A stretch of DNA of 39,734 nucleotides from Verrucomicrobiota bacterium. Lineage in GTDB: Bacteria; Verrucomicrobiota; Verrucomicrobiia; Limisphaerales; J093. Where the stretch lies: NCBI GenBank assembly GCA_012517065.1, contig JAAYVR010000156.1:1-39734 (forward strand), given 5' to 3'. Position numbers and translations under genes: made by a program. The notes below the pieces were generated by a model. It worked only from the letters and a program-made list of their open reading frames with translations, was not told where the DNA came from and ran no database searches. Shown in pieces: positions 4,951 to 39,734 of the stretch (the first letter of the stretch is position 1; each line of letters begins with the position of its first letter).

Positions 4951-6093
4951 TCAGCCGCGTCTGTTGGCGCGCCAGAGGAGCAATGCGCCAACGGCCTGAA
5001 ATAGCATGTTCGGCAGCCACGGCAAAAGTTCCGGGTGCCGATTGGGATATGTTTCCCATGCTTGTGCGAGGACAATGAAACCGTAGTACACAAGCAGAAG
5101 AACAATTGCAATGCCCATGCCGGCCGTTGTCTCGCGTCTGTGTGCGCGTACCCCGAGCGGTATGCCGATCAAGGTGAACGAAATCGACGCAAATGAAAAG
5201 GCGACCTGCTGATGCATCTGGACAGCGACAGGCGTTGGATCAACTCCCCGGCGGCGCCAGTCGTAGTACTCGGTCAGCAACTGAAAGAATGTCATTTCGC
5301 TGATTTTAAGTCTTTTGCGGCTTGGTTGCTGTATGCGTGCTGGTAACTCGATGATCTGATCTTCTGCGCCGCCGGGTTGCCAAGAATCGAGAAACACACC
5401 TTCAACCTTGGGCATCACCAGCGTCAACGACTGGTTGGTCGGATTCGGAACAATACGGGCTTCCGGCGCCCAAAGAATCATGCTGACCCGTGCTGCTGCA
5501 GGCTCGGTGTTGGCGCCCTCCGGTCCCGGAACGGATTCCGGAGAAGCATTCGTGTCCATCTTGTACACGAGCACGTTACGGAGCGCATTTGTCCCGATAA
5601 CCTTGCCCACGTAAAAGACGTAACCGGGGAAATCTCTCACGAATTGGTTTTCGGAAAGGATCGCTGCTGGCTGCTCCATCCCAAGGCCGTAGATGAGTTC
5701 CTTGTAGGCCACGCGAGACGTGGGCGCGACGTACATGCTGAACCACGCGCTCACTGCTGACACGCCAATGCTCAGCACCAGAATCGGACTGACAAGCGAC
5801 AGCAAGCTTATGCCGCTTGCCCGGGTCGCAGTAAGCTCTTGGTCGGCGCTGAATCTGCCAAACACAAGCAAGGTTGCCGTCAGCATTCCCATCGGCAAGG
5901 CAAACACCATCACAAACGGCACGAGCAGGAGAACCGCTTGCACAACCGCAATGAGGCTGATCTTGTGAACCACCAGCAAGACGAGAATCTCCCGCAACAG
6001 GTTGCCCAAGAGAAGGACCGACGTGAACACCGCAACCGTAAGCAGCATGCTAACCAGCACCTGTCGCAGCAAGTATAAGTGCAACGTCTTCAT
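4951..6093 (-). CDS. LptF/LptG (YjgP/YjgQ) family permease
   Basis: The protein has about 380 residues and the standard layout of lipopolysaccharide-export permeases. There is an N-terminal membrane helix (VLVSMLLTVAVFTSVLLLG), a further helical block (about 50-115), a large periplasmic beta-jellyroll region, and three C-terminal helices after the conserved VQMHQQVAFSFASISFTLIGIPLGV segment. LptF and LptG pair with the LptB ATPase to extract LPS from the inner membrane. Only one of the pair is here. The start at 6093 (MKTLHLYLLRQ) is typical for the family; the frame continues upstream into the preceding gene with non-homologous residues. It begins only 7 bases after the hydrolase stop codon, so it is translated from the same message as three metabolic genes. 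Confidence 0.92.
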   Translation of the reverse strand: MKTLHLYLLRQVLVSMLLTVAVFTSVLLLGNLLREILVLLVVHKISLIAVVQAVLLLVPFVMVFALPMGMLTATLLVFGRFSADQELTATRASGISLLSLVSPILVLSIGVSAVSAWFSMYVAPTSRVAYKELIYGLGMEQPAAILSENQFVRDFPGYVFYVGKVIGTNALRNVLVYKMDTNASPESVPGPEGANTEPAAARVSMILWAPEARIVPNPTNQSLTLVMPKVEGVFLDSWQPGGAEDQIIELPARIQQPSRKRLKISEMTFFQLLTEYYDWRRRGVDPTPVAVQMHQQVAFSFASISFTLIGIPLGVRAHRRETTAGMGIAIVLLLVYYGFIVLAQAWETYPNRHPELLPWLPNMLFQAVGALLLWRANRRG

Positions 6094-10379: not shown

Positions 10380-10918
10380 GCCTGACCAGACCACGGCACC
10401 TAAAGATTCATTCCGATGAAAAGTCAGGGCGAATTGGCTTGCATGGGCATTGTCCCAACCACGAAATACACCAAATACACGAAAACGTTGCTCTGATAGT
10501 ACGGGCTTTCAGCCCTTGGATTGTGGAAAGTGATGCCGGAATGGCCCTTGTCGTGGGGCTTCGCCCCACGCTGGTATGGACCGCGCCGTTGGCGCTTCGA
10601 TGACCGACCGAGACGACCTCGTTGTCCATGCCAGCGCAGTTACTCTTTTCAGTCATGAGCGCCCCTGACTGTGTTCCAGACCGTTGGTGTTCGTGGAGGA
10701 GTGACTCGAGGGCCGAAGGCCCGGACCCATACCAGCCTGGGCCAGCGGCCCAGGTGACAGGCCCAAGAGCAGTATCACTAAGGGCTGAAGGCCCGCATCA
10801 TGCACGTTTCCAGACGGTTAAGTATTTGGGAACGTTCAACGTGCAACGCTCAACGCGCAACGTTCAGGGGTGATACTGCTCGATGAGTGCTTATTTGAAG
10901 CCGCCTAAAGGCGGGACT
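10380..10918. repeat. Type C-A-B composite repeat, copy 1
   Basis: Copy 1 of a tandem duplication (copy 2 begins at 11160, offset 780). The C part carries six short hairpins with 3-base loops: 10503-10515 (GGGCT-TTC-AGCCC), 10552-10570 (CGTGGGGC-TTC-GCCCCACG), 10583-10595 (GCGCC-GTT-GGCGC), 10710-10722 (GGGCC-GAA-GGCCC), 10736-10754 (CCTGGGCC-AGC-GGCCCAGG) and 10782-10794 (GGGCT-GAA-GGCCC). CTGGTATGG at 10571-10579 is the exact complement of CCATACCAG at 10727-10735, so an outer helix can enclose several of them. A type A right arm (10831-10867) and type B hairpin (10901-10914) follow. Confidence 0.85.
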
Positions 10919-11159
10919 CTAGCGGCCCGCGGGCGTCACACCGCCCGATGCACGGAACAACCCATCGCCGTTAGAGCTCCGCGTTTACGCGAAACACCGC
11001 TTTACATTCGACAACACAAGGACCAAAAGCCCCGCTTGTTCAAAACCCTTTCGCGTACTTCGCGTTCTTAGTGGTTGAAACCAATCGAACCATCTGTTGC
11101 TCCTTCCCAAATCCGCCTGGTTGCATAACACTATTCCGGCCAGCCGTCAAATCTCGCCG

Positions 11160-11698
11160 CCTGACCAGACCACGGCACCCGACGATTCATTCGGATGACA
11201 AGTCAGGGCGAGTGGGCTTGGATGGAGATTGTCCCAACCACGAAACACGCGAAACACGCGGAAACATTGCTGTGATAGTCCGGGCTTTCAGCCCTTCAAT
11301 TGTGGAAAGTGATGTCGCGATGGCCCTTGTCGTGGGGCTTCGCCCGACGCTGGTATGGACCGCGCCGTTGGCGCTTCGGTGACCGACCAGGACAACCGCA
11401 TTGTCCATGCCAGTGCAGTTGATTGTTTCAGGCATGAACGCCCGTCAGGGTGTTCCAGACCGTTGGTGTTCGTGGGCCAGTAACTCGAGGGCCGAAGGCC
11501 CGGCGCCATACCAGCCTGGGCCAGCGGCTCAGGTGACAGGCGCAAGATCAGTATCAATAAGGGCTGAAAGCCCGGATCATGCACGTTTACCGGCGGTTAA
11601 GTGTTTGAGAACGTTCAACGTACAACGCTCGACGTGCAACGTTCAGAGGTATTACTGCTCGATGAATGCACGTTTCAGAGCCGCCTAAAGGCGGGACT
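11160..11698. repeat. Type C-A-B composite repeat, copy 2
   Basis: This copy keeps the order of all six hairpins and the outer helix (11350-11358 with 11506-11514). Several stems carry single mismatches (for example CGTGGGGC against GCCCGACG), while GGGCT-GAA-AGCCC is better paired than in copy 1. It is followed by the type A right arm at 11610-11647 and the type B hairpin at 11681-11694. The bases between the copies (about 10926-11159) recur as a fragment at 25661-25806. Confidence 0.85.
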
Positions 11699-12056
11699 CT
11701 GGCAGCCGCGGGCGTGGCAACGCCTAATGCGCGGGACAACCGATGGCCGTTAGATCTCCGCGTTTATGCGTTAGCAAGAAAACTGTCTGTCGCAGCTCCG
11801 GCGCGGTTAGAACGGCGGGGCCTTCCGTTCGGGAAATGTTGCGTAGGGCAGGGCGATCGCCCCGCGCACAGCACAAACAACATGCCTGTCCTTTCGGCTT
11901 GGAACCTGCTGCGCTGGTGTAATCATCGGGGCTGAAGGCATGCTAACGGCAGGAAAACGTTTTTGTCTCGGGGCGAAAGGCCGGGCGGGGTGGATTCATA
12001 TCCGCAAACGCATATTCGGACTTTTGTGCTTACTATCCTTGCCACAGTTGGTCTCT

Positions 12057-25208: not shown

Positions 25209-25368
25209 TATGCGCTGCCACTCTGTCGCCGGGAAAAGCACCTTGTCCATCCCCTTTGGACCCGCCGCTGCCAGAGAAACTTCCAACCACATCAACCTCT
25301 TCCGCCTGAAGGCGGCACTCTAGCGGCCGCGGGGGACAACGCCGCTCGGTTAGCAAAACCGCGGCCCA

Positions 25369-25483
25369 GTTGAACGTTGTAAGTTGAACGTTGTACGTTG
25401 GACGTTGAAAGTCTCGATAGCTTGATCAGCTCGGTCTTCTGTTTGAGAACGTTCAACGTACAACGCTCAACGTGCAACGTTCA
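25369..25483. repeat. Type A element, full two-armed copy
   Basis: The left arm is at 25369-25411 and the complementary right arm at 25447-25483, as at 131-240. Here too the flank is a reddish GC phrase (GCGGCCC) on the left, and the TACTGCTCGATGA phrase plus a type B hairpin (25519-25532) on the right. Another B hairpin (25302-25315) precedes it. Confidence 0.75.
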
Positions 25484-25660: not shown

Positions 25661-25806
25661 CTTTCGCGTATTTCGCGCTTTTCGCAGTTGAAACCAATCA
25701 AACCATCGGTTGCTCTTTCCCAAATCCGCTCGCTTGTGTGACACTATTCCGCCCAGCCTGCAAATCTCGCCGCTAGACCAGACCGAGACACCCAAAGCTT
25801 CATTCC
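25661..25806 (+). repeat. Fragment of the type C spacer
   Basis: This stretch is clearly similar over its length to 11047-11190, the sequence between the two large tandem copies (shared phrases include CCCTTTCGCGTA, TTGAAACCAATC, TTCCCAAATCCG and ACACTATTCCG). It ends just before the DUF5069 gene and carries none of the six C hairpins. Confidence 0.75.
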
Positions 25807-36434: not shown

Positions 36435-36519
36435 AACCACGAAACAGACAACACACGCGAAAACGTTGCTTTGATAGCTCGAACGCCCGAACTGACCGTC
36501 GGCCGCTCCCAGTTCGGGC
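36435..36519. repeat. Type C fragment and a 10-bp hairpin
   Basis: 36435-36480 resembles 10458-10500 in the large tandem unit (ACCACGAAA ... CGAAAACGTTGCT.TGATAG). Directly after it, GCCCGAACTG (36485-36494) and CAGTTCGGGC (36510-36519) form a perfect 10-base-pair stem around a 15-base loop, in the position where the first C hairpin would lie. No T-run follows. Confidence 0.65.
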
Positions 36520-39460: not shown

Positions 39461-39734
39461 CGCACCCGACCGGTGAACGTTCGGGCGACGGGTTTGCGTG
39501 ATTGAAGCGAGTGCACGATCGGTCGTCGGGTTGATGCGGCCGGGGACGGCCGCGCTCCCAGCGACGTTGCCTTTTCCACCGCGTGCAGGAGCGCGGCCAT
39601 TCTTGGCCGCCCCAAGCCGGTGAATAATCGGGCGCAGGATTTGCATAATCGAAACGGGTGTAAGATCGGTCATCGGGTTGATGCGGCCGGGGACGGCCGC
39701 GCTCCCAGCGCCGTTGCCTTTTCCACCGCGTGCA
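39461..39734 (+). repeat. Tandem type E units
   Basis: The phrase GTTGATGCGGCCGGGGAC starts at about 39530 and again at about 39677, a period of about 147 bases, and the second unit runs off the window. Each holds a GCGGCC-..-GGCCGC hairpin; the first also shows GCGGCC-ATTCTT-GGCCGC at 39593-39610. The single unit near 28490 has the same order. Confidence 0.8.

Follow-up and report, generated by a model that had tools for sequence, protein, structure and literature searches.

Six-hairpin tandem repeats of a Verrucomicrobiota genome as probable gene-less derivatives of a Y1 (HUH) transposase element

The six ordered hairpins of a tandem repeat in a Verrucomicrobiota genome are probably the two ends, paired and inverted, of a Y1 (HUH) transposase element with a short spacer in place of its gene. 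The repeat lies in a 39,734-nucleotide stretch of contig JAAYVR010000156.1 (the window), and its six-hairpin element is interpreted as a non-autonomous, REPIN-like derivative of a TnpA_Y1 subclass 1.2 element that TnpA would mobilise. The evidence comes from the anatomy of the element, its copy number and fixed inverted pairing, its linkage to tnpA in this genome and in other phyla, the compensation in its stems, a foot common to two of its hairpins, and derivatives that retain part of a deleted gene.

Results

Anatomy of the tandem unit

The genome to which the window belongs (G000) comprises 5.26 Mb in 298 contigs. A composite unit of 780 bp (10380..11159, plus strand), consisting of a six-hairpin core and other repeat modules, is followed by a second, truncated unit (11159..11770, plus strand). 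The preliminary description, made from the sequence of the window, had reported two copies at an offset of 780 bases with six short hairpins in the same order, and both points were confirmed. The offset is 779-780 bp, and the copies are 85% identical over their first 300 bp. In copy 1 every one of the six triloop hairpins occurs in order, and copy 2 keeps this order with one mismatch each in HP1 and HP1'. Unit 1 contains five triloop hairpins with stems of at least 5 bp, against 0.87 expected from shuffled sequences, and the fold energy lies well under that of shuffles (z -6.1 as DNA and -6.4 as RNA).

A single module, HP0–HP1–CTGGTATGG–HP2, accounts for all six hairpins: it occurs twice in inverted orientation, with the copies facing each other and a spacer of 114 bp between them. 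The stems of HP1 and HP2 are 8 and 5 bp long, with loops of 3 nt, and HP0, which lies outside HP1, has a stem of 5 bp. The left end carries the stems CGTGGGGC and GCGCC, and the right end CCTGGGCC and GGGCC. In copy 1 the left end, on the plus strand, is made up of HP0 (10503..10515; GGGCT TTC AGCCC, 97.8% paired across 27 genomic copies), HP1 (10552..10570; CGTGGGGC TTC GCCCCACG), the conserved linker CTGGTATGG with a CT dinucleotide and the foot of HP2 (10571..10579), and HP2 (10583..10595; GCGCC GTT GGCGC), and the covariance model R1 matches it at 10552-10595. The spacer (10596..10709, plus strand) takes the position that tnpA has in the related autonomous element. The right end, on the minus strand, is made up of HP2' (10710..10722; GGGCC GAA GGCCC), the linker read on the opposite strand (10727..10735; CCATACCAG), HP1' (10736..10754; CCTGGGCC AGC GGCCCAGG), with an R1 match at 10710-10754 minus, and HP0' (10782..10794; GGGCT GAA GGCCC, with G.T as closing pair). 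The corresponding parts of copy 2 are HP0 (11282..11294, plus), HP1-linker-HP2 (11331..11374, plus, one HP1 mismatch), HP2'-linker-HP1' (11489..11533, minus, one HP1' mismatch) and HP0' (11561..11573, minus).

Covariance-model modules were found in the window only at 10552, 10710, 11331 and 11489. The fragments reported earlier at 25661-25806 and 36435-36480 do not represent the hairpin core. They match positions 446-780 (71%) and 78-120 (84%) of the unit, in the repeat modules next to it.

The other modules of unit 1 are an inverted repeat starting at 10380, AACGTTC heptads at 10831-10866 and a second inverted hairpin family at 10901-10991. This second family (CCGCC-TAAA-GGCGG-GACTCTRGC and its mirror, which ends in CGCGTTTACGCG) was also observed at L102:480-580, and no transposase belonging to it was found. 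Heptad arrays (AACGTTC/GTTGAAC) were observed in the window at 131-238 and 25368-25483 as well, and several further families of the order have similar ones. A 242-bp difference between G000 and the congeneric genome G001 (L078:4344-4587 compared with L344) holds an inverted repeat, CCCGGAAATCTCACCG...CGGTGAGATTTCCGGG, which is related to the 40 bp that open the 780-bp unit.

The transposase gene of the genome and its deleted derivatives

A Y1_Tnp search of the genome returned one strong match, on contig C124. This tnpA is an intact, single-copy gene of 150 aa (L102:4592-5044, minus strand), with a right-end module on its start-codon side (5058-5101) and a truncated left-end module on the other side (L102:4500-4537), from which HP0 and the 5' arm of HP1 are missing. 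The two ends of this element have the stem identities GCGCC and GGGCC, left and right, as in the pair in the window. No tnpB was seen beside the gene. The protein scored 89.6 bits against PF01797 and 71.1 bits against NF033573 (cut-off 55), so that NCBIfam assigns it to IS200/IS605 and not to REP_Tyr_transpos; the closest solved structures by sequence are TnpAs of the IS608 type, 2a6m (E 3.7e-05) and 2vhg. The motifs DHVH and YIDKQ are present in this TnpA and in homologous ones. The other Y1 genes of the genome, located at contig ends (L012, L013, L015-L018), were rejected as partners, with none of the modules nearby.

Four gene-less pairs contain the 3' end of tnpA at 81-84% identity (L102:795-943, L098:12084-12234, L059:95-238 and L065:5267-5412). 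Since the last codons of tnpA are joined to the tnpA leader inside these pairs, they are internal deletions of the tnpA element. The 114-bp spacer of the abundant form, as in the window core, gave no match to tnpA; an origin of the spacer as a remnant of the gene was therefore rejected for the abundant form, and clear remnants are confined to the minor form. With the same inverted ends beside a Y1 transposase gene and deleted copies that keep part of it, the earlier suggestion of a non-autonomous mobile element gained support.

Homologous tnpA loci in other lineages

The association between modules and tnpA was examined at 62 loci, namely 61 homologous loci from a genome scan and the gene described above, counting only strict double hairpins with stems free of mismatches within 250 bp of the gene. 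Modules were present on 34/62 upstream and 30/60 downstream sides and on at least one side in 45/62 loci. In total, 64/122 flank sides carried a module, against 4/102 distal control sides and 31/2440 shuffled ones (Fisher p about 1e-16), and a second, more distant set gave 12/37 sides versus 3/31 (p 0.04). Flanking modules were found in Verrucomicrobiota, Acidobacteriota (Granulicella), Kiritimatiellota, Sumerlaeota and Bacteroidota (Algoriphagus). The signature Y---Q--HH was present in 54/57 homologues. Modules stand around tnpA in both orders, with either HP2 or HP0 on the inside, and genome G016 has one tnpA-bearing element and five gene-less pairs with a common layout.

Stem sequences vary widely between these phyla with pairing kept; in 11 of the 13 pairs both partners change, and compensation was counted in 68 cells against 16 in shuffled data. 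Because the cross-species modules were recruited by their pairing, part of this compensation signal is built in, and the independent evidence is the association test. Within a locus, the 8 nt preceding HP0 resemble those preceding HP2, and between lineages they differ (3.94 of 7 versus 3.28; 0/2000 permutations); since related loci are not independent, the exact value of this figure is soft. No such likeness within a locus was found for the 8 nt before HP1. The feet read GATGGG-C or are TTCTTTC-like.

Several of the subclass 1.2 tnpA elements (L128, L130, L132, L133, L135, L137, L138, L141 and, on contig C138 of G016, L299) lie beside or between segments that resemble the HsdS C-terminus (PLPPLxEQRRIVAEIE...). 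Pfam Methylase_S is matched at 1e-07 by one upstream segment and by none of the shorter ones. A tandem repeat of the unit HsdS-C / SANGAPPSQPGATPQ / tnpA is present in L137, and the tnpA element may carry a replacement HsdS end.

Copy number, pairing and spread

The covariance model found at least 108 modules in the window genome, 62 in G001, 98 in G049 and 75 in G043, and none in 24/58 genomes of the order. A right-end pattern occurred 49 times against 0 for a control pattern. Among contigs sampled in the order of their numbers, 278 kb held about 8 strong matches, which scales to an estimated genome-wide total of roughly 150 modules. Modules are mostly intergenic, with 4/80 inside ORFs of at least 250 aa, which cover 68% of the sampled bases. 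Among neighbouring modules less than 400 bp apart, 22 of 26 pairs are arranged left(+)/right(-), and 19 of these 22 have a linker spacing of 162-164 bp. Across the 58 genomes, module presence was weakly tied to tnpA presence (p 0.10); no tnpA was found in G001, which has 62 modules in a fragmented assembly that is 89% complete.

The copies could have spread solely as mosaic repeats that recombine and undergo segmental duplication, so that the hairpins would be relics and the pair would no longer be moved. This is consistent with the copies that lie inside the 780-bp composite, in tandem and often with the same neighbours, and with the window array, whose left and right flanking genes are on different contigs of G001 (C20 and C601). 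As the flanking genes are on separate contigs, no empty site can be read at the array. No covariation excess was found among the in-genome copies taken together, which also agrees with spread by recombination. Against it, homology among copies repeatedly begins or ends near unit positions 101-103 and 612-620, with cores that have differing neighbours, and in 27 full in-genome copies collected by BLAST the hairpins remain 96-99% paired at a divergence of about 13%. Spread by recombination only is therefore considered unlikely. Between G000 and G001, the two genomes of the genus, no empty site carrying the hairpin module was found, and for this reason we infer, and do not observe, mobility in the species of the window. 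Many repeat copies stop at contig ends, and most of the compared genomes are fragmented metagenome assemblies.

Elements with terminal inverted repeats in G049

In G049 (L249-L277), a six-hairpin element of 226 bp is present in 29 copies that share 90-99% identity, with HP0 on the inside and HP2 on the outside. The copies are delimited by terminal inverted repeats of 11 bp (TIRs; GTATSTGTTTA/TAAACASATAC) and by 8-bp duplications. The duplications were identical at 133/216 positions against 65.6 expected (0/500 shuffles), and the insertions frequently hit hairpins that belong to other repeat families, e.g. CCCGGCT-GA-AGCCGGG. The same TIRs were found in three copies of G016 and, with a 7/8 duplication, round unrelated content in L383. 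An autonomous partner for these TIRs was searched for and not found. Another element, in L386 and L375, starts with GTATCTGTTTAGCCGTACCSATTCAGTCG, has its first 12 bp in common with the G049 TIR and may represent one end of the mobilising transposon. Y1 enzymes are not known to produce 8-bp duplications, and thus the hairpin ends in G049 probably ride on another transposon.

These elements, together with L383 and the G016 copies, are the basis for regarding the pairs in general as passengers of a conventional TIR/TSD (DDE-type) MITE, with the Y1 gene merely a historical relative of the ends. However, no such TIRs and no target-site duplication (TSD) of fixed length were found in the window genome copies with visible ends, and the TIRs are likewise absent from the flanks of the tnpA elements inspected, that of G016 included. 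The linkage to tnpA in several phyla and the co-varying feet would also be left unexplained, making a MITE origin of the pairs decidedly improbable.

Regulatory sites and the enclosing helix

The intergenic position of the modules would also suit bidirectional terminators or protein-binding sites that are kept between genes for regulation, whatever their origin, and REPs elsewhere have such roles (PMC6006769, PMC3733652). The mosaic arrays with their varied neighbours and the missing T run directly after the window-copy hairpins argue against it, and the linkage to tnpA is not explained by it, so regulation is very unlikely as the main reason for the repeats and could be a secondary role.

The preliminary description had also pointed to a distant 9-base complement, said to enclose three hairpins, and to a structured RNA among its possible readings. 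The complement encloses two (HP2 and HP2'). The linker at 10571..10579 forms the left half of this supposed helix, and since the second half on the other strand equals the first, the complement is simply the conserved linker in both orientations. In the 27 copies it is the worst-paired helix (92%), with no compensatory, double-sided change and with its two most variable pairs broken in 7-8 copies, and an RNA helix was rejected on these grounds; the minimum-energy fold of the window copy pairs the linker with a different partner. The covariation looked for was found in the hairpins across species, and within the genome it was missing from the enclosing helix. A structured RNA with that helix at its centre, for which the low folding energy and the 9-bp complement had spoken, is hardly credible, given 0 Rfam matches in the window, a DNA fold about equally far below shuffles, a linker and HP0/HP2 feet that track the transposase, and modules in both orders around tnpA, across which one RNA fold would not survive. 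The alternative of a DNA-folding element holds only so far as the hairpins are probably recognised as DNA single strands.

Discussion

Comparison with known systems

A close parallel to the proposed Y1 element and its gene-less pairs is REPIN/RAYT (TnpA_REP; Bertels and Rainey 2011, PMC3116915; Quentin et al. 2018, PMC6006769), with which it shares high-copy intergenic inverted doublets flanking one low-copy Y1 gene, a foot motif 5' of the hairpin, and tandem clusters that include flanks. The REPIN/RAYT transposase is of class 2 (Y---NP), whereas that described here is of class 1 (Y---Q--HH); REPIN/RAYT has one hairpin per end with a GTAG/GTGG foot, whereas the ends here have three hairpins, no such foot and a conserved HP1-CT-linker-HP2 block.

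The genome also contains a RAYT-type system of the classical kind, as indicated by a 147-bp repeat (GCGGCCGGGGACGGCCGCGCTCC / GGAGCGCGG..TTCTTGCCCGC; window 39470-39734 and L105:6200-8150) that surrounds a REP_Tyr_transpos gene on C169 (L105:6940-7665). The C169 protein was rejected as the partner of the six-hairpin modules because it is tied to this third repeat family. A 283-bp insertion in G000 relative to G001 (L106:3643-3927 compared with L117) holds a C169-type repeat and is direct evidence of the gain or loss of that repeat within the genus.

With IS200/IS605 (IS608, ISDra2) the system has in common a TnpA with Y1_Tnp domain, HUH motif and catalytic Tyr, and subterminal hairpins. Those elements have one hairpin per end on the same strand and no inverted repeats, in contrast to the inverted three-hairpin ends, the single-copy gene and the very many gene-less copies described here. 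They also make no target-site duplication; here there is no clean empty site, and the G049 relatives with extra TIRs show 8-bp duplications.

The motifs Y---Q--HH, DH[VI]H and WQ, a length of about 150 aa and a low copy number agree with TnpA_Y1 subclass 1.2 (Quentin et al. 2018), a membership based on motif and length. In that survey (PMC6006769), subclass 1.2 is given as REP 'no', as 'generally without' IS200 terminal structures and as occurring mostly in Cyanobacteria and Bacteroidetes, whereas most members examined here have flanking hairpins and the taxonomic range is wider. Class 3 of the same survey, from Planctomycetes/Acidobacteria, differs in the Y motif (YV[VI][AENY]EQ), the HuH motif (NHVH) and the CnGA foot. 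In the literature on subclass 1.2 with hairpins only the 2018 survey was found, and an earlier description in work on domesticated Y1 transposases (10.1093/gbe/evx146) is possible.

Proposed mechanism

For TnpA_REP, a foot beside the hairpin is required and single strands are cut at CT (PMC8266576), and in the REPIN model the mobile unit is the inverted doublet (PMC3116915). Each end of the present element reads HP0-spacer-HP1-CT-foot-HP2, with the two ends facing each other. By analogy, TnpA supplied in trans would most likely recognise foot-HP0 and foot-HP2 as single-stranded DNA, for which the lagging strand would be most accessible, and may cut at a nearby dinucleotide, for instance the CT after HP1, which is invariant across 26 aligned modules. 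The pair would then be the unit that is copied or moved in trans, as proposed for RAYT and REPINs, and the 780-bp tandem unit would be a later composite, in which a pair fused to other repeat modules was duplicated with its surroundings.

Implications

Taking the lineages together, we lean towards regarding the whole of TnpA_Y1 subclass 1.2 as a second, independent REP-type system, with its own three-hairpin ends for each gene, a co-evolving, guide-like foot, gene-less amplification in several lineages, and ends that can be captured by TIR/TSD transposons. For the uncultured organisms concerned, many of the repeats where the genome assemblies break are explained as well. A DNA partner is supplied for a transposase subclass that was described in 2018 as having none, and substrate recognition thereby becomes directly testable. 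If the proposal is true, REP-like amplification is not confined to class 2 but also arose among the IS200-type Y1 enzymes of class 1, where the ends are designed differently.
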